In this document: piece after piece, positions 2,083 to 19,476 of the stretch | Position numbering within the stretch: position 1 is the first letter of the stretch | How the letters are laid out: each line of letters begins with the position of its first letter | From: Candidatus Omnitrophota bacterium | GTDB lineage: Bacteria; Omnitrophota; Gorgyraeia; Tantalellales; Tantalellaceae | Length of the DNA stretch: 34,486 nucleotides | Reading direction: 5' to 3' | Assembly (NCBI GenBank): GCA_015231405.1 | Contig: JADGBR010000037.1 | Span: forward strand, 1-34,486 | Made by a program: the position numbers and the translations under genes | Notes under the pieces: generated by a model | What the model was told of the DNA's origin: nothing | Databases searched by the model: none | The model's input: only the letters and a program-made list of their open reading frames with translations

Positions 2083-2116
2083 TCCGCCGGGGGGTGCCTT
2101 CCGTTCTATTTTGATT

Positions 2117-3499
2117 ATGGACCATAAGAATAACGCTTCCCTTTTGAGCGATATCGTGTCTCTCATCGGGTCAGTTGTCCCTTTTGAATTAGGTTTGAAT
2201 AAAAAACGGGATATAACTAGACTTTTGTTTGAGATCAGCCGGCGTGACGGTTCGGACCCTGCCGATATCCTGAAGGCGATCGCTCTGGATGAAATACTCG
2301 CGGGGGATCGCGGCGGGATATACGATAAGCTGAAGGCAAGGCTTATAAAACTCAGGTATCCCTCTTTCGCTGCCGGTCATGAGCCTCGAATATTTCCCGT
2401 AAAAGTCCGTGAAACGATGGAGGAAACCCCCGGGTGGAAAGGCACTTTCGACCCGGAGAATATTTTTGTCGAGAAAAGCGTCGCCCATAGCGATTGGGTA
2501 TTGAGATTTACAGAAAAATTCCCGCGCGCCAGAGTTGTCGATATCGGTACCTTCAAGGAAGGGGTCAGCGACTTTTCAGGTCTTAATCCGGTAGAAAGGT
2601 ACGACCGGCGCGGAAAAAATATTTTCCTTGTCCGGAATAAGAACGCCTTCATCAAGGTTTGTCCATGTACCAAAGGTTATAAAAGATGCGGATATTGGAT
2701 ACTCAATATGGGGTTTGGCTGCCCGATAGACTGTTCCTACTGTTTTCTCCAGCTGTACAGCAATTCTCCCGGTATTATACTCCCCGCTAATGTCGATGAT
2801 TATGTCGGCTATGTAAGGGAATTCGACCGTAAAGTTTCAGGGACCACAAGGGTAGGCACGGGAGAATTCGCCGATTCACTTGCACTTGACCGATATACAG
2901 GGTATTCTAATATTCTGATACCGTTATTCGCGAGAACAGAGAAGCTGGTGCTTGAACTTAAGACAAAGGTTTCGGGTATCGACCTTGTTCTCGAACATGA
3001 ACCGCATGAAAAGGTGGTACTTTCGTGGTCGGTTAATTCGGCTTCAATGGCCGAAAGGTTCGAGAAGGGAGGGTCGCCTCTTTCGGAAAGGATAGACGCG
3101 GCAGAGCGTGCGGCTAAAAGAGGGTTCCGGGTAGGTTTTCATTTCGACCCTGTCATTTATTACCGGGGCTGGGAAGACGGGTATAAGGAGACGGTAGAAA
3201 GCATATTCTCGAGGCGCGCAATAAGGGAAAAGGCGGCATGGGTCAGCCTGGGAACCTTGAGGTACACCCCGGGGCTTAAAGAGTCCGCAGAGAAAAGGTT
3301 CGACGATAATTTGTTGTATTATTGGGGTGAGTTTTTCGAGGATACGGATGGCAAAATGCGCTATCCCGTCGATCTTCGGGTAGATATTTACAGGAAAATG
3401 GCGGGATGGTTAAAAAGCTATAAAACCGCGGCGTGGGTGTATCTTTGTATGGAGCCGGAAGAGGTTTGGGGTAAGGTAGGGGTATATGACGAACGATGA
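2117..3499 (+). CDS. Radical SAM protein, spore photoproduct lyase-like
   Basis: About 460 residues. The radical SAM cluster motif is GCPIDCSYC, with Cys at 202, 206 and 209 (C-x3-C-x2-C) to bind the 4Fe-4S cluster that cleaves S-adenosylmethionine. It is preceded by further cysteines in VCPCTKGYKRCGYW and followed by the aromatic FLQLY, as in SplB-type proteins. GTGEFADSLALD and the HFDPVIYYRGWEDGY block also match the spore photoproduct lyase branch. Nothing else here suggests sporulation, so the substrate is unknown; DNA or nucleotide repair is one possibility. ATG 2117 is preferred over in-frame TTG 2111; neither has a well-spaced ribosome site. It overlaps the next gene by 14 bases, which indicates translational coupling. 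Confidence 0.8.
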   Translation: MDHKNNASLLSDIVSLIGSVVPFELGLNKKRDITRLLFEISRRDGSDPADILKAIALDEILAGDRGGIYDKLKARLIKLRYPSFAAGHEPRIFPVKVRETMEETPGWKGTFDPENIFVEKSVAHSDWVLRFTEKFPRARVVDIGTFKEGVSDFSGLNPVERYDRRGKNIFLVRNKNAFIKVCPCTKGYKRCGYWILNMGFGCPIDCSYCFLQLYSNSPGIILPANVDDYVGYVREFDRKVSGTTRVGTGEFADSLALDRYTGYSNILIPLFARTEKLVLELKTKVSGIDLVLEHEPHEKVVLSWSVNSASMAERFEKGGSPLSERIDAAERAAKRGFRVGFHFDPVIYYRGWEDGYKETVESIFSRRAIREKAAWVSLGTLRYTPGLKESAEKRFDDNLLYYWGEFFEDTDGKMRYPVDLRVDIYRKMAGWLKSYKTAAWVYLCMEPEEVWGKVGVYDER

Positions 3500-4652
3500 G
3501 TTGAAAAGGATAGACGCCAAGATAGTGGATATCACTCGGGGTATAGATTTCATAACCCTGCTTACGCCGGTGAACCAGGCCGCCGAAAAGGAAAAATTTT
3601 TCAAGAGTTTTCATAACGGGTTCGAATATAATCCTGTTTTTGAGTTCAAGGAAAAAGACCTTTCGGATTTCAGGGTCGCACTTGTGGACATGCGTAACAC
3701 CCTAGACGAAAAAGAACCCATTGAGCGGCTTTTTATCCATAAGATAGTTTTCCTTCTCGGGCAGATAGATCTCGTCGAGTGCGAGGACAGGCGTTTCACG
3801 AAGCTTTCGGAAAAGCTGTATGGCATGCCCGATAAAAAAGGGCTGGATTTCGCGATGAAGATACTGGCTACTGAAGTCAACAGGGCGACGTTTTTTCCCG
3901 AAGAGACCGTCACTCCCAGGGAGATGGCTGAAATAATGCGCCAGAGGCTGAAGGCGCTCAAGATACCGTGGCGGGTGGAGCTTTCAAACAAGATCGTTTC
4001 CAAAATAAATGTTTCCGGCAGGGACAGGGTAATACTGGTCAATGCTGGCCTGAACTATACGCCGCAGGAAGCAGAACGCCATAAAGTGCATGAGATAGAG
4101 GTGCATGTGTTCCGCGGCATGAACGGCGACCACCAGCCTTTCAGTATTTTCAGGGAAGGGCTGGCCGGCCATGACGAGGCTGAAGAAGCGCTTGCCATAC
4201 TTGTCGAGGATATACTCGGGTGCCTGGAGCTGGACTTAAGGCAGATAAAGATATACGCGGGCAGATATTTCGCCATACATCTGGCGCTCGCCAACTCGTT
4301 CTTTGACGTATTTCTCAGGGTAAGGGAGTATATGCCTGACGAGCTGGCTTACCGCATAGTGGAAAGGGTTAAAAGGGGGCTCAAGGATACCTCCGCCCAT
4401 GGGGCTTTTACACGGGAACTTTTTTATATCAGGGGGATCATGAGGCTCGAGAAATTTCTCGAGAACGGAGGCGACCTGTGCAGCCTTTACGCCGGTAAAG
4501 TGGGTTTCGAGGATATAAAGATCGTGGAAAAACTGCTTAAAGACAAGATATTGAACCCGCCCAGCCATATGCCGGCGTTCCTCTACGCTCAGGACCACAG
4601 GTCTATTTGCAAGCACGCGGGTTTCATGAAGATGATAAACGATATTTATTAA
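3486..4652 (+). CDS. DUF1704-type HExxxH metallopeptidase-like protein
   Basis: A 388-residue cytosolic-looking protein with no signal peptide. The key motif is HEIEVHVFRGMNGDHQP: HExxxH with H202, E203 and H207, followed by REGLAGHDEAEEALA (residues 223-237), which would supply the third metal ligand. This arrangement is characteristic of the DUF1704 family (PF08014), which includes the eukaryotic tubulin tyrosine carboxypeptidase MATCAP and bacterial proteins annotated as QEGLA-motif. Zinc peptidase activity is therefore inferred from motif and family; the substrate is unknown. ATG 3486 lies inside the end of the radical SAM gene in another frame. The gene is enclosed between FecR-like paralogs 2 and 3, hinting that all five genes form one unit. 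Confidence 0.78.
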   Translation: MTNDELKRIDAKIVDITRGIDFITLLTPVNQAAEKEKFFKSFHNGFEYNPVFEFKEKDLSDFRVALVDMRNTLDEKEPIERLFIHKIVFLLGQIDLVECEDRRFTKLSEKLYGMPDKKGLDFAMKILATEVNRATFFPEETVTPREMAEIMRQRLKALKIPWRVELSNKIVSKINVSGRDRVILVNAGLNYTPQEAERHKVHEIEVHVFRGMNGDHQPFSIFREGLAGHDEAEEALAILVEDILGCLELDLRQIKIYAGRYFAIHLALANSFFDVFLRVREYMPDELAYRIVERVKRGLKDTSAHGAFTRELFYIRGIMRLEKFLENGGDLCSLYAGKVGFEDIKIVEKLLKDKILNPPSHMPAFLYAQDHRSICKHAGFMKMINDIY

Positions 4653-5900: not shown

Positions 5901-7286
5901 ATGTTCAAAAACCTTGACCTGAATGACGAGTTCAATCGCGCCCTTGACCTTCTTGAGAATACCCGCGCTCATGTGTTCATCTCCGGGCGGGCGGGAACGG
6001 GTAAATCCACGCTTTTAGAGTATTTCCGAGGCGTCACTTCGAAAAGGGTCGTAGTTCTAGCATCGACCGGCGTCGCCGCCGTTAATGTGAAAGGCGAGAC
6101 TATACACTCGTTCTTCGGGTTCAAGCCGGGCGTTACGCTCGACAAGATCCGCGTGATAAGGTCCCGACGGGCTGACCTTTACAAAGAGATAGACACAGTC
6201 ATCATCGACGAAATATCCATGGTCAGGGCCGACCTTCTGGATTGCGTCGATAAGTTCCTCAGGCTTAACGCCAGGGATATACACCGTCCTTTCGGAAGCG
6301 TCCAGATGGTTTTTATCGGGGATTTGTACCAGCTGCCCCCGGTCCTGACCGCGGATGAAAAGGACGCCTATTATTCGAAATATAAAAGCATTTATTTTTT
6401 CGGGTCGGACGCCTTCAGAGGCCTTCCTGTCGAGTTCGTGGAGCTGGTTAAAATTTATCGGCAGAAGGACGAGGAGTTCATAGATATCCTCAACGCCGTC
6501 AGGGATAACACCGTTAACAAGGAACATCTGGATATCCTGAACCGGAAAGTGGTAGCGGGTATGCACATCGAGGACTTTACCGAACACGTTTACCTCACGC
6601 CGGCTAACCGTACGGCGTCTCTCTTGAACAATGACAGGTTGGAGGGCCTCGGGACGGAGCTCCATGTTTACAAAGGGGAGATGGAAGGCGATTTTTCCGG
6701 AAAATATCTTCCGACCGACGCTGAGCTCAGCGTAAAGGTCGGGGCGCAGGTGATGCTCCTTAATAACGATAATGAGGCGAGGTGGGTGAACGGGACCATA
6801 GGCAAGGTCGTAGATATCAGGAGGGACCTTAACTCTTCTGACATTATCATCGTTGAGATCCCCGGCAATAAAACGGTTGAGATAGGCCGGCATAAGTGGG
6901 AACTATTCCGTTTTAAACTTAACGAGAATTCGAGGGACCTCGAGTCTGAAGTTGTTGGGGCGTTCGTTCAATACCCACTGAAGCTCGCTTGGGCCATCAC
7001 GATCCATAAGAGCCAGGGGAAGACATTCGAGAAAATAATACTCGATACGACAAGCGGCATATTCGCCACGGGGCAAGTCTACGTGGCTCTAAGCCGTTCG
7101 AGGTCACTGGATGGCGTCATTCTGAAGAAGCCTTTGACCCGGAGGGATATAAGGATGAACAGCGAAATAGTGGATTTCTTCAAAGACTTTCGGGCCGGGA
7201 GATATGAAAGCAAGGGATCGCTTGCCGGTGAGATCGATATTTTTGGGTCCCCCTCGGAAGAAGAGCGCGTTATTGAGTTGGACTGA
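5901..7286 (+). CDS. PIF1-like superfamily 1 DNA helicase / AAA ATPase
   Basis: A 461-residue cytoplasmic ATPase. Walker A is GRAGTGKS (residues 29-36), followed by VVLASTGVAAVNVKGETIHSFF, the characteristic PIF1/RRM3 motif Ia region. Walker B is VIIDEISMV (D103, E104). Motif III-like MVFIGDLYQLPPV follows, and the C-terminal helicase motifs WAITIHKSQGKTF and GQVYVALSRSRSL are intact. It should unwind DNA 5' to 3' by family analogy, perhaps at G-quadruplex or stalled-fork substrates. ATG 5901 begins only 12 bases after the tRNA-linked repeat and has no clear Shine-Dalgarno; its promoter may lie inside that element or upstream of the tRNA. It ends about 20 bases before the first CIRCE operator of groESL. 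Confidence 0.85.
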   Translation: MFKNLDLNDEFNRALDLLENTRAHVFISGRAGTGKSTLLEYFRGVTSKRVVVLASTGVAAVNVKGETIHSFFGFKPGVTLDKIRVIRSRRADLYKEIDTVIIDEISMVRADLLDCVDKFLRLNARDIHRPFGSVQMVFIGDLYQLPPVLTADEKDAYYSKYKSIYFFGSDAFRGLPVEFVELVKIYRQKDEEFIDILNAVRDNTVNKEHLDILNRKVVAGMHIEDFTEHVYLTPANRTASLLNNDRLEGLGTELHVYKGEMEGDFSGKYLPTDAELSVKVGAQVMLLNNDNEARWVNGTIGKVVDIRRDLNSSDIIIVEIPGNKTVEIGRHKWELFRFKLNENSRDLESEVVGAFVQYPLKLAWAITIHKSQGKTFEKIILDTTSGIFATGQVYVALSRSRSLDGVILKKPLTRRDIRMNSEIVDFFKDFRAGRYESKGSLAGEIDIFGSPSEEERVIELD

Positions 7287-7487: not shown

Positions 7488-9438
<1,951 letters not shown>

Positions 9439-10572: not shown

Positions 10573-10614
10573 AAAATAATAAAAAGTATGAAAATTATAA
10601 TATTTGGAGCGTTG

Positions 10615-13600
10615 ATGTTAGTTAAAAAAGACAGTGCGATAAAGATCATAGCGTGGATACTACTGATCATTTTTACGTTACAGGATCTTTCTCTGTCGCA
10701 AAATGTGACGCAGGATACAGTCTCCAAAATATCCTTACCGGATCAGATAGCGTCAATCAATGAATCTTACCAGTCGGCCTTTAGAGGCGCAAAGACAATT
10801 ATTAACATCCAGGACGCGCATTCTTCTCTTGGCGCGCAGGAATCCATAGTTTCTATTCTTGATTCGTTGGTGTCGAATTATGACCTTGAAATGGTCGCCG
10901 TAGAAGGGTCAAGCGGTTTCATAGACACTTCTATACTAAGGACATTCCCTGATAAAAAGGTCATTAGGGACACAGCTCAATATCTTATGCGCCAGGGAAG
11001 AATGTCCGCGGGAGAGTTCTATTCAGTGATTTCAGATCGGGAAATAGCGGTGTATGGGATAGAAGATACGCCTCTTTATGAGGAGAATGTCTCGGAATTC
11101 CGGCGAGTCCGCGAATTGGAGACGTCCGCAGGACCGTTGATCGATAGAGCGCTGGGGAGGCTTGAGGTATTGGGCGAGAAAATATATTCCACGGAACTTA
11201 GAGCACTGAACGACGATCTCCTCTCGGATCTCAGAGAGGATGTGAATTTCCATGAACGATGGGAACACGCGGTTGTTTTGGCCGGGAAGTGCGGGATCGA
11301 TCCATCCTCATATGATAACCTCGCGAAACTTGTAGGATCTTTGCGCGCTGAAAAAAGCATAGATTTTGAGAACGCGAACAGGGAACGAGACGTGATCATC
11401 GATGATCTTATAGATAAATTGTCCAAAGAGCGGATGGATAAGTTAACACGGAAAATAATTGATTTTAAGGGAGGAAAACTTTCTCCGGGAGAATTTTACC
11501 ATTTTATCGCTGATATGGCCGGGGAAGAGGGAATGGACATCGGGGCGTATAAGAACTTTTCGGGTTATGTGAATTATCTGGCTCTTTACGGGTCCATAGA
11601 CATATTCGCTATGTTCAACGAAGCCAGGCAATTCCAGGACGCCATAAGGGAGAAATTATTCACCAGTGGCGACCAGCGTGAACTATACGAGGTCACCCGC
11701 TTTGTAAGAGCATTAAAAGGTCTTTTTGCGCTGAAGTCCGAGGACCGAGAGACCGAATATGTCGTATCCCAAAGTGAGCGTTACTCCGCCGCATACTTCT
11801 CGGATTTTCAGGGAAAAATGTCGGCAAAGTACTGCGTTGACGACGACGTATCATGTGATCTGTCAAGTGTGTTCCTGGATATACCCGACGTATTAAAATT
11901 TTATGAAACAGCCAAAAAAAGAAATAACGTGATGTTCGCGAACGTAATACGCAGGATGGAAGAATCGGGCCGGTCCGTCGCTGCGCTCGTTACCGGCGGG
12001 TATCATATGAGAGGTTTAGCCGACCTTCTGAAACGGGATCAAACATCATATCTTGTCGTTATGCCGAAATTCGATCCTTCGAGAGGCGAGCGGCCATATG
12101 TTGCTATACTGACAAATAAAAAAGCTCCGTACGAAGGGTTGCTTTCCACAAAACGCTTTTATCTGGCTACAAGCGCATATTTCGAGGGACTTGGATCGAT
12201 CAGGGCTCCGTCGGCTGAAAGCGCCGGGGATGGGTATGAACGGTTACGGCGTGAGTACGGCGAGGCTTTCGCCGGGGCCCTGGCTATGAGCCTGACCGCT
12301 AGAGATGATCCTCAAGCGGCTGCCGCTGAACTGGTAAAGCGGTTAGCCAGACATCAAGAAAAAGTCAAAGAAGAATGTGTCGTTCTATTCAGGAGATGGC
12401 TGGCCGGGTATAAAGCGTTCTACGATAGTTTTACACAGAGCGCGACAAAACCTAAGGATTTTGAGCCCCTCGCGCCGGACGATCTTAAAGGCTTTTTGAT
12501 AACGATAGCCAGAAGCGTGGGTATTGAGTTGAACGAGATCACGGTGAAATTAAGCGCGATCGAAGAATGCCTGGAGATAGTTAACAGTGATGAAAAAGAG
12601 TTGTATCTCGAGTCGATGAGGCGCCGATCTATGCTTGGTTTGTCAGAAGGATCCGGGCCTGTCGAAGGATATGATGACGAAGCCTATGAAAGAGCAGTTT
12701 CCGGGCTGGAAGGGGATATTATCAAAGCCCCGTTAAGGATGGCGGATTCAGCGGATACGATAGTCGACGAGCATGTGCTTACTGCTGTCGGGGAAAAGAG
12801 GCAAAAGGGAAAAATAATGGTCGTCGGATTGGACGGCATGTCCGGAGCCATAAAATCCACTACAGCCAGAGCAATGGTAAAACGCATCGAGCTTTCGGGA
12901 CACAAAGCCGTGCGTATCAGCCGTGACTGGTTCATCCGTTCCAGGCAGGAAAGATATACCTCTCAGGATAAAGAGCTGGCCGATGAACCGTATAGCCTCA
13001 GCGACGACGAGATCTCGCTCAGGCACGATAAATTCGAGCGGGAGGTGCTGTCGAAGATAGCCGAGTTCAACACCGGGTCGGAAGAAACCCTTACGCTTGA
13101 TCTAAGGGACCTTTATGACAACGCTACGGGTGAACTCATCTATTCGGAAAAGATAACAATAGACCGTGATACGGTCGTGATAATAGAAGGGAATTATCTT
13201 TTTACCGAACGTTACGCGAATAACTACGACCTAAGGGTCCTTATGCTGGCAAAGCCTTCAGTCGCCCTTAGCCGGCGTCTCCCAAGGGATACGCATCCCG
13301 ATAAGGAAAGGATCAAACGGATATTCTGGAAGATACATACGCCATCGATGCTGGATTACCTGAATAACGCCATGTCCGGAGCCGATATTGTGGTGGTCAC
13401 CGATGATTGGAGAGAAGGGAGGACATCACGTCCGGGGTCGGGCACAAAGTCGTTCCCGGGCGGCGGGGCCATGGTTCCGGGAGAGCCGAAAAACACTCTT
13501 AAGGCTAAGCCCCCGCGGGGTCAGGTGTCTACCGGTTTCTTTATCCCGGGGCCCGAACACGCGAGGACCGTGGATCTCACCACCTACCGTTCCGAAAATG

Positions 13601-16600
13601 ATGGCCGCCCCGAAATATCCAAATATACGGAATTTGTCGGTCCTGTATATTCGGATGTCGGTGAATACCTGGATGAATGCGGGATCACCCCGGACGACGC
13701 CCGTGATATATTTGACGCTCCGAAGCAGCGGATAGTACTTGGGATACCCTCGTACCGGAATACCGGTGATATGCAAGGAAGGAAAGCGTTCCTTGAACGT
13801 GTGGCGGGAGAGCTCAAGGCTGTCATGGAACGCGCTCCAGCTAACGAGAAACGCGAGGCCGAGCTGGTGATAAATGTTAACGGCCTGGAACAGGAAAATT
13901 ACCTTAAAACAATTCTTGAAATACAGCGTGAAATATCCGGAAAAGGGGTGTCCGTGACGGTCCTTCATACCCCGCTCGGAGGTTGGGCTCCCGGAGAAAG
14001 TATCTTGAGCAAAATAGCGGCTACTAACCCGATAATAGAGTACGCCAGGAGAACAGGCGCGAGCATAGTAGGAGTGGTAGACGACGATCTTATCTTTTCT
14101 GAAGACATGGTGCGTATGAACGTGGAGTTGCTGATATCCAAAGCGCGCGATCTGGTATCTCCGGTGATGGTCGGCCCTGTCAGGCGAGCTTTCAGGCGAA
14201 GTGATACCTTCTGGTCTCGGATAGCCCCGCGTCAGCCGCAGATGGATAATTGGGGGGCCGCGTGGTTCGCTTTTACATGCTCGATCCCGCCGCTTCCGGC
14301 CCTTCCGGTAAGCGAGGAATACTACAAAATGTATTTCATGGACGCTAAAGCCGTGAAAGGCCGGGAGAACTGGAGGTTATTTCATTCAGATGCAAGCGTT
14401 TATTATACTTCCTACGAACAAAGTCCTAAGGGAGCGATACGTCAGCAATACCGGTTCAAGCGGGGAGACCTATGGGTTAATTCCGTCATGGGAGAAGGCA
14501 AACGCGGACTTCGAAGCGCGAATTTCGGGATCGGCATGGTGTCGGAATACGCGGGAAGTATATTCACCGGTCTTCATATTGGCAATCTTTGGGAGAAGAT
14601 GTGGCTTTTGAGGAATACATTCGTGTCATTCTTGCTCAAGCTGGCGGTTAATCATGCGGTTCTGGGGGAAGTGTGGTTAAGGAAGATCACCGCGAACCCC
14701 CTTCATTCGGTCAAGTGGCGAAAATCTGTAGCGCCGGCTTCGAAACTGGGCCTGGGAAGCGCCAAGGAGAAGGGATACGTTGTCAGGACCGTTGTTCCGG
14801 AATGGTTTATCGGATATCTCGATGAGATCATCGTTCACTTTGAGAAAAGGGCGCTTAAGGATAAACGGTACAGATCAGCGCGAAACGCCATTTTAATGAC
14901 GAGACGAGACATGATAGAAAAACCGGAGGAGTTCGATCTTCGTTCGCTGGGCGCGTCGGGCGACAGCGCCGCCGAGCGCGCAAAAACTCTGATCCAAATG
15001 GTCATGGACTATCCCGGGAAGTTGAGATCGGTCTCAGGTCTTAGCGTTGATATGCCGCCTATAGATCTGGATTTTATGGGAAAAAAGGTCCGTGAGACCG
15101 CGAAGGGATATCTGTCGGCTATAACGGTCAATGATAGGAACGGTGATGCCTGTTCCGTAAGAGGAACAGAAAATACCGATGAATATGAGATGATCGGCCG
15201 GGACGGTCGAATAGCCGGGGTTTTTAAATTTATTTCAGCGATCGATACGGTTGACGGACGCGAGCGCTTAAACTGGAAAATGTTCATAGACTGGCTCGAT
15301 GTTGTCAGGGTAGATCCCCGGGAGGTGAACTCCGCGCTCTTGGATCTCAGAGGAATAGTCCCGGAAGGGGTGGAGTTGGAGTTGTCGTTCGAAGATCTGG
15401 GTAGTAAGGTCAGGTCTTTATCCGAAATACTCTTCAACCTGAGAGGCAAGGTCCCGGACGAGCGACTTCTGGATGTAGATAAAGCGGTTTATGCGGTGAA
15501 CGGTGAGGTTATTGTCACTCTTTCGAGAAATGGACAACTTAACGCTTATGACCGTTTTACTGGGAGCCAGGTGGCCGTTCCCCTGAAAGTGTATGGCGGT
15601 GTAACGGAACTTTCCGTGTCAGAAAGCGGGAGGTTTATATTTGCGGTGACGTCACCGACACGTGAAAGAGCCAAACTGCTTTATGCTCCGGGTGTCGTGG
15701 GCGAGGTAAGTGTCTGGGATTTTATGAGAGGACGAAGTAATACACTCACATATGACGGTGAAGCCGTCGATGCGGGGGCAGAGATCCTGAAGACAAAGGC
15801 TGCATTAGTCGGGATTTTCAGGGATTGGGATAAGACCGCTCTAGTGGACAGGAATTTATTGAAATTATCTCCCTCGACTTATGAGAACGATCTGGAGTGG
15901 ATAGAGAGATATCATTCACCGTGGGGTGTCTCGCCGGGCGGCGGATACGCCGATATTTTTGATCTGGATGGGCCCGCTCCTTTATCGAATGCCATACGGG
16001 ATTACGAAGGAGTTTCTGTTGTAGGGAATTCAAAGACGATAATATCGGTGACAGCCTCTCCTGGAGCAAGGGGCCTTAAGGAATTAGTGGACCGCGCGTT
16101 GGAATTATGCGCGAACTTCGTTCCGGAAAGAGCATCCAGGGCCAATTTGCACGTGCTTCCGCGGGTCCGGGGGAATATCAAGAAAGATATCCTTTCGTCG
16201 GGAGAAGTCCACATAAGGATAGACCGGAATTTCCTGGAAAGGCTTATCCGGAATAAAAAAGACCATCCTGACGCGGTCGAGCGGATATTCGCGGAAAGAT
16301 TGGGACACGAACTGTCGCATGACGACAGCGTAGGTTCTGACCGCGAGGAGGCTTTTGAAGAGAGGAATGTGATACTCGGTTTCGACCTGCCGTTCTATAG
16401 AGCTCTATGCGCCCGAGGGGAGCTCAAAGATAAAGTGGACCATTTCTTTGATAGGACCGGAGTTAGTTTCGGCGGGCGAAATTACTTCAAATGCCTTCTG
16501 GACAGGATAAAAGATATGCCCCTGGACGAGGCGCGCCACGAGGTCGAGATGGTGGTGGACCATTTGTACGGGTTCGGCTATAAGTTCGTGCGTAAGGGCA

Positions 16601-19476
16601 GTTCCGGAGCGAGGACACAACCCGGGCGCCAAAGCTTCACCGAACATGCCGTGGTGTCGAAATCATTCCCGGCCGATGACTTGGCTTCACGTGATGGCCG
16701 TGAGGTCTACGCTTTCGATTTTGACAAAACCCTGGTAGGGTCTACGAGGCCGATAACCAAAACCATGGCGAGAAAGGTAGCGCGGCTTATATTCGAGAGA
16801 AACGCAAAGGTCGCTATAGTGACCGGAAAAAGTTTAGGCGAGCAGGGAGCTTTGCTTAAGGAGATCGAACGGGTAAGGGCCGCGGGAGAAGATATAGAGG
16901 CTTCTGAGATACAAGAAGCCCTCGATAGAGGGCTCGGGGTGCTTGAGTTCTCGGCGGAAAGGATAATAAGGGAACTCTCCTCGATCGCCTCGAGAGATAT
17001 GTCCAAAGAAGACCTCAGCCGTTCTTTGGTCCTATACCCATCAAAATCTTCCGAGAAATACGTTTATGTTGACGGTCAATTAGAGCGGAGATTCGGCAGT
17101 TACATAGACTATTCGCGCAAGGAAGGGATCATCGATGTTTTGGACGGACTTTTACCGGGTATCAGGAACAGGATGTTCGATTCGAGAGACATGCCTCTGG
17201 CGAAACTGGCGACTATCGGGGAGGAACAATGCCGTAATATGGACGTAGGGTATATTTTCGGCAATGAACAGGGCATAACAAAAATATACCTTGGGCTGTG
17301 GGGTATGAAGAAAAGGATGGAACTTCCCGGCAAAAGGGATGAGCTTTGCGCAAGGTTGGCTCAAAAATTCGCGGCGATAGGGCTTGGAGATGTTTGTGTC
17401 GAGATCGGAGGCGGCACCTCGGTGGACATAACTAAACGGGGTAAGACGAACGCCATTGAGGACCTGATAGCCGAGGGGCATCGAGAGATCCGCTATTTCG
17501 GCGATGAGCCGGACGGTAATGACAAGGTGATAGCGCAAATGGCACTGACATGCCCATGGCTGGAGTTCAACGATGTTTCTTCCGGGAAAGAGAGCCAAAC
17601 CGAGCGGAAGCTGGACGATATACTGGAGAGTGTCGATATCGCCGAAAGCGCCGCGCGTTGGGCAGTACCGGGATATGACGATGCGGCGTATGAAGATATT
17701 GTTAAGGGCTTGAATGGGAAAAAGATCGAAGGAATTGTGACAGATCGATCTATCCGCTCTGTCATAGTGAATGAGCATATTATCCCGTCCGCCGAGGCAA
17801 AAAAAGGCGACGGGAAGGTATTAGTTGTAGGGATAGACGGTTCATCAGGCGCTACGAAAACAACTACTTCCAGAAAAATGGTGGAGGAGCTGACGATTGG
17901 CGGCAGGAAAGCCGTCAGGATCAGCAAAGACTGGTTTGTCCGTCCAAGGTCCGAAAGGTATGCCGCTCAGGATAGAGAGATCGGACATAACGGGTTCAGT
18001 TTGCGAAACGAAGAGACGTCTTTCCCTTCGGGGATATTCGAAAAAGAAGTTCTCGATAAGATAGATGAATTCAATAAAGGGACAGATGAGAGTTTGACCC
18101 TGGAATTGAAAGGGCTTTACGATAAGGACGGGCTCAGCACGCATTCCGAAACCATCAGGATCGATAGGAACACCGTAGTTATAATTGACGGGAATTATCT
18201 GTTCACGGATAAGATCGCGCATTTTTTCGATCTGAAAGTGCTTATGGTCGTTAAACCTTCAATAGGGCTAGCTAGGAGGATACCCCGTGATCAACAACCT
18301 TACAAAGGGAGAATAGCCAGGGTGTTTTGGAAGTTACATTCACCTTCTATGATCGATTATCTGAGGAACAGGATGACCGGTGCGGATATTATCGTGTCGA
18401 CCGATTCCTGGGGAAAAAGTCTTTCCCCGGTGACTGAGCTCCCGTTATCCACTCCTCCGGACTTTCTTTTAGCTATACCAAGCGAGGGGCATAGCGAAAC
18501 GGAATTGGCCGGGGCGGTAGAGGCGATAAAGCGCATTGCCGGTAGCAGGATAGAGGTGAAATTGCTCGAGGGCGCCCCTGCCGAAGCGGACATTAACGGT
18601 CTTATGCTTATCGCCGAGAAGAAGGGTATCCCTTTTGTCCGTATTCTCGACTGTGAAAAGCTGGATGATGACATGATCGTTGCCTTTATCTCAGAGATCC
18701 TCAAAATGTCTGACCTTGACAGGGAAGAATTGGCGGGGATACTTCGGTTCTTGAAGGCCTCCATTGAAAGGATCGAGAAGGTGGATATCGACGGCATGAT
18801 CCTTGCCTGGCAGGCGAGGACCTTTAGGCGTGATCCCAGCGTTCTTTACAGGTACAGCGGCGAAACAAAGAGAGCGTTCTCCGGGAGAACGCCGATGGTC
18901 TCGGCCGCGACACAGGGCGTTGTCGAGAGCGGGTTGTCCTGGGGGGCGAGGATACAGGAAAGATGGAATAAAATGGGCGTCACATCACGCGATCTTGATC
19001 CGGTACAAGAGACCCTGATCGTTACCGACCCGCTAATGACCGTGGATGGTATTAAAAGCTATCTCGCTTCACGCGGCCTCGCGGTGTATATTGACCCGAA
19101 GAACGTGATCTTCGCTAATACGATGGGAACAACGGACCTAAAGCAGATCGAAACGAAAATAGCTTCTATTAGCGGGGTAGATCCAGTGAATATAGGGATA
19201 TGCGCCAAAGAAGGCGAACTTGAGGCTGACGGCCGGCAGGGTTCAATATTTTTACAGCTTCAAAAAGATCCGGGGACGGACCGATTCATAAATATTAACA
19301 TGTATGAAGTGCTTTTCGACCTTTTGTGCGATGCCGACGCCCTCAGGTCTATCCCCGGACTTGAAAGAACCGGTAATAAGGTTTTCAGATATCTTCCTCC
19401 GACTATCCCAGGTTATTATCTTGATGAAGTGAAAAATTATGAACGCACCGCAGAAATTATCCTAAAAGCGGCGTAA
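10615..19476 (+). CDS. Giant multidomain membrane-anchored protein
   Basis: One uninterrupted frame of about 2,953 residues (numbering from ATG 10615; GGAG at 10606 favours it over ATG 10588). Order: hydrophobic anchor about 8-27; Tiki/TraB/EreA-like region about 55-520 (QDAHSSLGAQ, VAVEG, VTGGYHMRG); uridine-kinase-like domain 1 about 686-937 (GMSGAIKST, SRDWF, VVIIEGNYLF); GT2-like domain about 1035-1300 with DDD at 1156-1158; a WD-like beta segment about 1624-1703; an HELSH metalloprotease-like motif at 1898-1902; a HAD phosphatase domain about 2030-2320 (DFDKTL, IVTGKS, GDEPDGNDK), closest in style to phosphomannomutase-type HADs; kinase-like domain 2 about 2353-2602; and an unrecognised C-terminus. 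Individual catalytic activities are inferred from motifs only. It could modify surface glycans at the membrane, or some domains may be inactive. Very large proteins are known in Omnitrophota. Confidence 0.75.
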   Translation: MLVKKDSAIKIIAWILLIIFTLQDLSLSQNVTQDTVSKISLPDQIASINESYQSAFRGAKTIINIQDAHSSLGAQESIVSILDSLVSNYDLEMVAVEGSSGFIDTSILRTFPDKKVIRDTAQYLMRQGRMSAGEFYSVISDREIAVYGIEDTPLYEENVSEFRRVRELETSAGPLIDRALGRLEVLGEKIYSTELRALNDDLLSDLREDVNFHERWEHAVVLAGKCGIDPSSYDNLAKLVGSLRAEKSIDFENANRERDVIIDDLIDKLSKERMDKLTRKIIDFKGGKLSPGEFYHFIADMAGEEGMDIGAYKNFSGYVNYLALYGSIDIFAMFNEARQFQDAIREKLFTSGDQRELYEVTRFVRALKGLFALKSEDRETEYVVSQSERYSAAYFSDFQGKMSAKYCVDDDVSCDLSSVFLDIPDVLKFYETAKKRNNVMFANVIRRMEESGRSVAALVTGGYHMRGLADLLKRDQTSYLVVMPKFDPSRGERPYVAILTNKKAPYEGLLSTKRFYLATSAYFEGLGSIRAPSAESAGDGYERLRREYGEAFAGALAMSLTARDDPQAAAAELVKRLARHQEKVKEECVVLFRRWLAGYKAFYDSFTQSATKPKDFEPLAPDDLKGFLITIARSVGIELNEITVKLSAIEECLEIVNSDEKELYLESMRRRSMLGLSEGSGPVEGYDDEAYERAVSGLEGDIIKAPLRMADSADTIVDEHVLTAVGEKRQKGKIMVVGLDGMSGAIKSTTARAMVKRIELSGHKAVRISRDWFIRSRQERYTSQDKELADEPYSLSDDEISLRHDKFEREVLSKIAEFNTGSEETLTLDLRDLYDNATGELIYSEKITIDRDTVVIIEGNYLFTERYANNYDLRVLMLAKPSVALSRRLPRDTHPDKERIKRIFWKIHTPSMLDYLNNAMSGADIVVVTDDWREGRTSRPGSGTKSFPGGGAMVPGEPKNTLKAKPPRGQVSTGFFIPGPEHARTVDLTTYRSENDGRPEISKYTEFVGPVYSDVGEYLDECGITPDDARDIFDAPKQRIVLGIPSYRNTGDMQGRKAFLERVAGELKAVMERAPANEKREAELVINVNGLEQENYLKTILEIQREISGKGVSVTVLHTPLGGWAPGESILSKIAATNPIIEYARRTGASIVGVVDDDLIFSEDMVRMNVELLISKARDLVSPVMVGPVRRAFRRSDTFWSRIAPRQPQMDNWGAAWFAFTCSIPPLPALPVSEEYYKMYFMDAKAVKGRENWRLFHSDASVYYTSYEQSPKGAIRQQYRFKRGDLWVNSVMGEGKRGLRSANFGIGMVSEYAGSIFTGLHIGNLWEKMWLLRNTFVSFLLKLAVNHAVLGEVWLRKITANPLHSVKWRKSVAPASKLGLGSAKEKGYVVRTVVPEWFIGYLDEIIVHFEKRALKDKRYRSARNAILMTRRDMIEKPEEFDLRSLGASGDSAAERAKTLIQMVMDYPGKLRSVSGLSVDMPPIDLDFMGKKVRETAKGYLSAITVNDRNGDACSVRGTENTDEYEMIGRDGRIAGVFKFISAIDTVDGRERLNWKMFIDWLDVVRVDPREVNSALLDLRGIVPEGVELELSFEDLGSKVRSLSEILFNLRGKVPDERLLDVDKAVYAVNGEVIVTLSRNGQLNAYDRFTGSQVAVPLKVYGGVTELSVSESGRFIFAVTSPTRERAKLLYAPGVVGEVSVWDFMRGRSNTLTYDGEAVDAGAEILKTKAALVGIFRDWDKTALVDRNLLKLSPSTYENDLEWIERYHSPWGVSPGGGYADIFDLDGPAPLSNAIRDYEGVSVVGNSKTIISVTASPGARGLKELVDRALELCANFVPERASRANLHVLPRVRGNIKKDILSSGEVHIRIDRNFLERLIRNKKDHPDAVERIFAERLGHELSHDDSVGSDREEAFEERNVILGFDLPFYRALCARGELKDKVDHFFDRTGVSFGGRNYFKCLLDRIKDMPLDEARHEVEMVVDHLYGFGYKFVRKGSSGARTQPGRQSFTEHAVVSKSFPADDLASRDGREVYAFDFDKTLVGSTRPITKTMARKVARLIFERNAKVAIVTGKSLGEQGALLKEIERVRAAGEDIEASEIQEALDRGLGVLEFSAERIIRELSSIASRDMSKEDLSRSLVLYPSKSSEKYVYVDGQLERRFGSYIDYSRKEGIIDVLDGLLPGIRNRMFDSRDMPLAKLATIGEEQCRNMDVGYIFGNEQGITKIYLGLWGMKKRMELPGKRDELCARLAQKFAAIGLGDVCVEIGGGTSVDITKRGKTNAIEDLIAEGHREIRYFGDEPDGNDKVIAQMALTCPWLEFNDVSSGKESQTERKLDDILESVDIAESAARWAVPGYDDAAYEDIVKGLNGKKIEGIVTDRSIRSVIVNEHIIPSAEAKKGDGKVLVVGIDGSSGATKTTTSRKMVEELTIGGRKAVRISKDWFVRPRSERYAAQDREIGHNGFSLRNEETSFPSGIFEKEVLDKIDEFNKGTDESLTLELKGLYDKDGLSTHSETIRIDRNTVVIIDGNYLFTDKIAHFFDLKVLMVVKPSIGLARRIPRDQQPYKGRIARVFWKLHSPSMIDYLRNRMTGADIIVSTDSWGKSLSPVTELPLSTPPDFLLAIPSEGHSETELAGAVEAIKRIAGSRIEVKLLEGAPAEADINGLMLIAEKKGIPFVRILDCEKLDDDMIVAFISEILKMSDLDREELAGILRFLKASIERIEKVDIDGMILAWQARTFRRDPSVLYRYSGETKRAFSGRTPMVSAATQGVVESGLSWGARIQERWNKMGVTSRDLDPVQETLIVTDPLMTVDGIKSYLASRGLAVYIDPKNVIFANTMGTTDLKQIETKIASISGVDPVNIGICAKEGELEADGRQGSIFLQLQKDPGTDRFININMYEVLFDLLCDADALRSIPGLERTGNKVFRYLPPTIPGYYLDEVKNYERTAEIILKAA

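Follow-up and report, generated by a model that had tools for sequence, protein, structure and literature searches.

Results

The window, the whole stretch of DNA that was analysed, is 34,486 nucleotides of contig JADGBR010000037.1 (GenBank assembly GCA_015231405.1; Candidatus Omnitrophota bacterium, family Tantalellaceae). It holds a coding sequence of 2,953 residues (10615..19476, + strand), hereafter the giant, whose features all lie on the + strand. The frame is also open from an ATG at 10588; the ATG at 10615 is favoured as the start, giving 2,953 residues, because GGAG lies five bases ahead of it. The first-pass annotation had described one unbroken frame, and this agrees with a single open + strand frame (10588..19476), a translation of the coding sequence that contains no Ns and a GC3 that is even over its whole length (0.47 to 0.59). 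Upstream lie a spore photoproduct lyase-like radical SAM protein (2111-3499), a bacterial gene that strongly matches MATCAP, the family of microtubule-associated tyrosine carboxypeptidases (3486-4652; E = 1.6e-49), a PIF1-like helicase (5901-7286) and, just ahead of the giant, a TCP-1/cpn60 chaperonin-family gene (7795-9438). Riboflavin genes follow downstream, and no dedicated partner gene was seen in the neighbourhood. The host assembly that was searched (3.66 Mb, 93 contigs) encodes three secretins, so the host is probably diderm, with one or more channels through its outer membrane. A search of the whole protein against the PDB with phmmer returned UBC9 matches only, which were judged to be chance.

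The giant opens with a segment resembling a signal peptide or anchor (residues 1-30; 10615..10704), in which Lys/Arg residues precede a hydrophobic stretch (maximum KD13 2.78, at residue 8), and its paralogs have a similar N-terminus. The hydrophobic anchor proposed earlier is thus present, and the protein is predicted, from hydrophobicity only, to be exported.

The next 500 or so residues form a conserved domain, here called the head (residues ~36-525; 10720..12189), which the first-pass annotation overlooked, as it did the C-terminal domain and tail described below. When the host genome was searched with the giant, 44 matches were found, nearly all confined to residues ~36-525, and about 35 of them were other large frames, the longest with 8,035 residues. 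Across 30 aligned heads of the same genome, the DxH, E, GxE, R and GG(F/Y)H positions were invariant or nearly so: in D67-A-H69 (10813..10821) the Asp and the His were each kept in 29 of 30, and E97 (10903..10905) and H464, within TGG(F/Y)H (12004..12006), in all 30. TIKI enzymes use a catalytic set of two His and two Glu (ExH, E, H; PMC6254334), and D67xH69, E97 and H464 fit this set in 29 to 30 of 30 paralogs, with Asp replacing the first Glu. An AlphaFold2 model of the head (pLDDT 83, pTM 0.74) was compared with the PDB using Foldseek; EreC ranked first, accompanied by 3b55/2rad, HopBA1 and ChaN, at a best E of 0.07 and low TM. No Pfam family scored over its cut-off on the heads, where matches were below cut-off or scattered (ChaN, E = 0.18). 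The predicted fold points to the TIKI/Ere/ChaN group, and from its motifs and model we call the head TIKI-like, which is not to say a proven TIKI protease. Troponin and calmodulin matches to a head profile in the PDB were rejected as compositional; they fall on a helical insertion.

The head was found in 43 of the 59 genomes of the search among relatives and, across the phylum, in 174 of 384 genomes. Among the best 80 of 214 named head loci, almost all were from Omnitrophota, with a few records from Auribacterota, other PVC bacteria or unclassified sources. One frame with this head (L022; contig C93 of G000) is 8,035 residues long and has a DEAD-type motif, and SecA models match slices of an alignment that includes it. 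Paired Walker A sites were seen in five shared-head giants (L034, L040, L042, L049 and L051), slices of which are matched by AAA_5-type models.

At the other end, the C-terminal domain (residues 2604-2953; 18424..19473) ends at the stop codon and is common to about 30 giants of relatives. Its AlphaFold2 model had a pLDDT of 84, and a fold search against the PDB gave many Rossmann-like and periplasmic-binding-like matches, none reliable. Within it, the last 34 residues (19372..19473; ...YLPPTIPGYYLDEVKNYERTAEIILKAA) make up a tail that also occurs in own-genome paralogs lacking most of the C-terminal domain, where it takes the form I-x-[PK]-[IV]-[DN]-x-x-E-I-x-E-...-E-V-x-x-S-L-stop. A 34-position profile of this tail matched 41 places in the host genome, nearly all within frames longer than 800 residues (two were in short frames of 54 and 89 residues). 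Twelve places, 11 of them outside the training set of the profile, were read separately, and all 12 reached a stop within three residues. Beyond the host, 16 genomes of the family and one of the class have the tail as well. At five loci (L090, L092, L095, L107 and L108) giants stand in tandem, the C-terminal domain ending one and the TIKI-like head starting the next.

Between head and C-terminal domain lie five enzyme-like modules. The first and last, K1 (residues 683-940; 12661..13434) and K2 (residues 2351-2605; 17665..18429), are uridine kinase/PRK-like and both exceed the PF00485 cut-off of 22 bits (39.1 bits, E = 9.2e-10, and 42.1 bits, E = 1.1e-10, respectively). They arose by internal duplication and remain 52% identical over 258 residues. 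Synonymous change between them is saturated (pS 0.80) while nonsynonymous change is low (pN 0.32), so both are constrained and under selection. The two P-loop kinase motifs reported in the first-pass annotation do mark kinase domains; the loops themselves (GMSGAIKST and GSSGATKTT) depart from the canonical Walker A GxxxxGK[ST] in having no Gly before the Lys, which makes catalysis by K1 and K2 uncertain. GSGKTT is seen in more distant relatives. Three further genomes (G154, G220 and G153) have a K2-related kinase module in open frames of 29,000-36,000 residues.

The second module (residues ~959-1377; 13489..14745) is GT2-like and matches a TIKI-headed giant of another class (G333) at 32-34% identity, with 33% over ~400 residues (E = 4e-65). 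Its DDD motif (residues ~1156-1158; 14080..14088) aligns with LIDDDVDF of that homologue; the module also has QQYRF, in which the usual W is F, and the homologue has QNRRW. The glycosyltransferase-like motif noted earlier is therefore kept, as DDD plus QxxR(F/W), in a giant of another class; the Pfam GT2 model Glyco_tranf_2_3 (PF13641) matches the module below cut-off (E = 0.03; 14.8 versus 27 bits). The third module, zincin-like (residues 1771-1993; 15925..16593), contains the HELSH listed in the first-pass annotation (residues 1898-1902; 16306..16320). It has no Pfam match. About 12 frames from other genomes carry relatives of it that keep an HExxH-type sequence, and a module in contig C223 of G276 is 47% identical to it. 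The fourth module (residues ~2028-2330; 16696..17604) resembles HAD-IIB and PMM enzymes (NCBIfam HAD-IIB, E = 1.5e-4; Pfam PMM, E = 0.009; both under the curated cut-offs) and carries the HAD motifs FDFDKT and GDEPDGND that had been called complete. Searches of the GT and HAD segments against the PDB gave nothing firm except a weak PMM2 match. The HExxH, DDD and HAD motifs are all intact in the giant, which is a multi-domain fusion as first described, of closer to six identifiable domain types than the "about eight" then counted.

The same two ends are common to some 35 to 40 large frames of the host genome, far from what chance would give, whereas detectable similarity between middles was limited to 18 of 276 pairs of own-genome giants. 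The middles contain ABC1 kinases, AAA_5 pairs, M48 peptidases, a protein kinase, SecA-like segments, PGM/PMM, WD40, PTS-EI/HPr and others. HExxH occurs 28 times in these giants (20 of 40 frames), versus 1.5 expected and a maximum of 6 in 200 shuffles. WD40 stretches of giants in one alignment (A3) are matched, slice by slice, by eukaryotic beta-propeller models, at E values down to 1.8e-50.

The domain order of the giant is conserved in none of the genomes searched. A giant of 2,971 residues from another MAG (L098) shares both the head (41% identity) and the C-terminal domain, which there enclose a different middle of HExxH motifs and PTS-EI/HPr modules. Most middle modules of the giant recur singly (33-53% identity) in giants from other families or classes that otherwise differ from it; K1, for example, is 48% identical to a module in contig C3 of G165, and the C-terminal domain likewise recurs singly in contig C62 of G276 (53% identity). 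The neighbours of the matches to the C-terminal domain (G276 C62), the HExxH module (G276 C223) and K1 (G165) have no similarity to the giant. Modules are exchanged between giants, and L098 and the singly recurring modules are direct evidence of it.

Head and tail diverge together. Pairwise head identity correlated with tail similarity (Mantel r = 0.56, p = 0.0002), also among the 258 pairs whose middles are not similar (r = 0.51, p = 0.0004) and after removal of a clade ending in Ala (r = 0.43, p = 0.004). For control segments r was near 0, with one value of 0.16. Head and tail either function together or are co-inherited while the middle is replaced.

Discussion

We read the giant as one permutation of an exported protein family with constant ends and an exchangeable middle, in which the ends serve handling and the modules are payload (probability about 0.6). 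The head would comprise the signal or anchor segment and, after it, a TIKI/EreA/ChaN-like hydrolase domain that carries the DxH...E...H residues; the foot would be the short tail, preceded in the present giant by the wider conserved C-terminal domain. Enzyme modules would recombine as units between them, here in the order kinase, GT2, HExxH, HAD, kinase. The protein would be exported, and head and tail would jointly act as a common handling part, most likely in sorting, processing or anchoring to the envelope; the TIKI-like domain may be a protease acting on the tail or on the junctions between modules. The modules would be a variable payload, most likely acting at the cell surface or inside a partner cell of a host-dependent bacterium. 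Several points count against this reading: export is predicted from hydrophobicity only, the Foldseek matches of the head are weak and no Pfam family exceeds its cut-off there, no secretion machine is tied to the tail, and the co-divergence of head and tail could be mere co-inheritance without functional contact. Another concerns the payload. Many of the modules (kinases, AAA_5, SecA-like, PTS-EI) normally need cytoplasmic ATP or PEP, which would be strange in an exported protein that does not enter another cytoplasm.

The first-pass annotation offered two interpretations, an envelope-associated assembly line or a giant scaffold of decayed enzymes. In the former, the kinase, GT, HAD and HExxH modules would work in sequence on one sugar or nucleoside substrate, and most of the module types do act on sugars, nucleosides or sugar phosphates, behind a hydrophobic N-terminus. 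An envelope-directed fusion of kinase, GT, HAD and other parts in a previously undescribed arrangement is supported, whereas a dedicated pathway is not: the order of modules is kept in no genome searched, for which reason we reject this reading as highly improbable; single modules are found beside unrelated neighbours, and between the same two ends paralogs have unrelated enzymes (protein kinase, SecA-like, PTS-EI, AAA_5). The scaffold interpretation, restated as a surface coat or adhesion protein whose enzyme folds are structural or ligand-binding, mostly inactive, and whose ends anchor or assemble it, is rather unlikely. Coat or adhesin roles have been proposed for giant ORFs of Omnitrophota (in the passages on them in PMC10066038). 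ATP is not expected outside the cell, and both K1 and K2 have lost the final Gly of the P-loop, a change that lends decay weak support. The duplicated kinases are nevertheless strongly constrained (the pS and pN above), the HExxH, DDD and HAD motifs are undamaged, HExxH is strongly enriched over shuffled sequences, and some paralogs have canonical Walker A sites, all of which argues against this interpretation.

A cytoplasmic, polyprotein-like fusion, in which the N-terminus is an anchor with the body facing inwards and a TIKI-like or HExxH domain frees the enzymes, would suit both the cytoplasmic type of the fused enzymes and the presence of a protease-like head and HExxH modules. We consider it improbable: Lys/Arg ahead of the hydrophobic stretch would favour an N-in, body-out topology, and the modules make up no recognisable complete cytoplasmic pathway. 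That the gene is an artefact of assembly or gene calling on a chimeric contig is hardly credible, even with an assembly fragmented into 93 contigs and N runs in some paralog contigs; its frame is continuous with even GC3, its ends are of the kind seen in dozens of paralogs and in giants from many independent genomes, and another MAG holds a complete giant that matches it in ends and length.

If the constant-ends reading is right, the roughly 40 giants of this uncultured bacterium that share these ends suggest a large family of interchangeable proteins, placed at the surface or delivered, that has not been described so far. More speculatively, and less probably than not, head and tail may mark an as yet undescribed route of handling or delivery among Omnitrophota and their neighbours, by which dozens of giants per genome bring metabolic and signalling enzymes of ordinary kinds to the surface or into partner cells, their modules swapped between lineages. 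With a common head, a short common tail and an exchangeable middle as marks, giant Omnitrophota proteins can be recognised, counted and classified; this architecture turns the giant-protein puzzle into a testable family and points to what may be a new signal for sorting or processing in host-dependent bacteria. The exchangeable middle also accounts for the fact that no fixed function fits any single giant.

The earlier statement that no described system has this order of parts holds within the literature searched, where no description of the shared head and tail was found either; that literature left subscription papers mostly uncovered, and a prior description is possible. Work on giant ORFs of the same phylum (Seymour et al. 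2023, PMC10066038) links them to host-dependent lifestyles and calls them poorly understood; its giant-ORF passages describe them as poorly conserved and as having few domains annotated, and mention no shared head, shared tail or exchangeable middle. A preprint on giant genes (10.1101/2023.11.21.568195) is cited in a passage of PMC12057145. Predatory Omnitrophota have gigantic multi-domain proteins with lipocone domains, which likewise combine peptidases and polysaccharide enzymes and were proposed to serve predation (PMC12419801); the main text of that study does not mention TIKI.

With the TIKI superfamily (TIKI, EreA/EreC, ChaN, HopBA1 and RRSP) the head shares the DxH...E...H residues; its model predicts an alpha/beta core, which may correspond to the superfamily's parallel beta core with flanking helices. 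It differs in a long helical insertion, in having Asp rather than Glu as the first acidic residue, in standing at the head of giants and in lacking a Pfam model over cut-off. Polymorphic toxins similarly join a constant trafficking part to recombining modules, but in them the C-terminus varies and an immunity gene usually lies next to it (PMC3482391), whereas the C-terminus of the giant is constant and the genes downstream are for riboflavin synthesis. MARTX multi-effector proteins, one module of which (RRSP) is a TIKI-fold protease (PMC6254334), offer an analogy of design only. The giant has no Pfam match to RTX repeats or the cysteine protease domain at E values up to 1, and its constant parts are unrelated to those of MARTX; what the two have in common is constant ends around an exchangeable middle of several enzyme modules.
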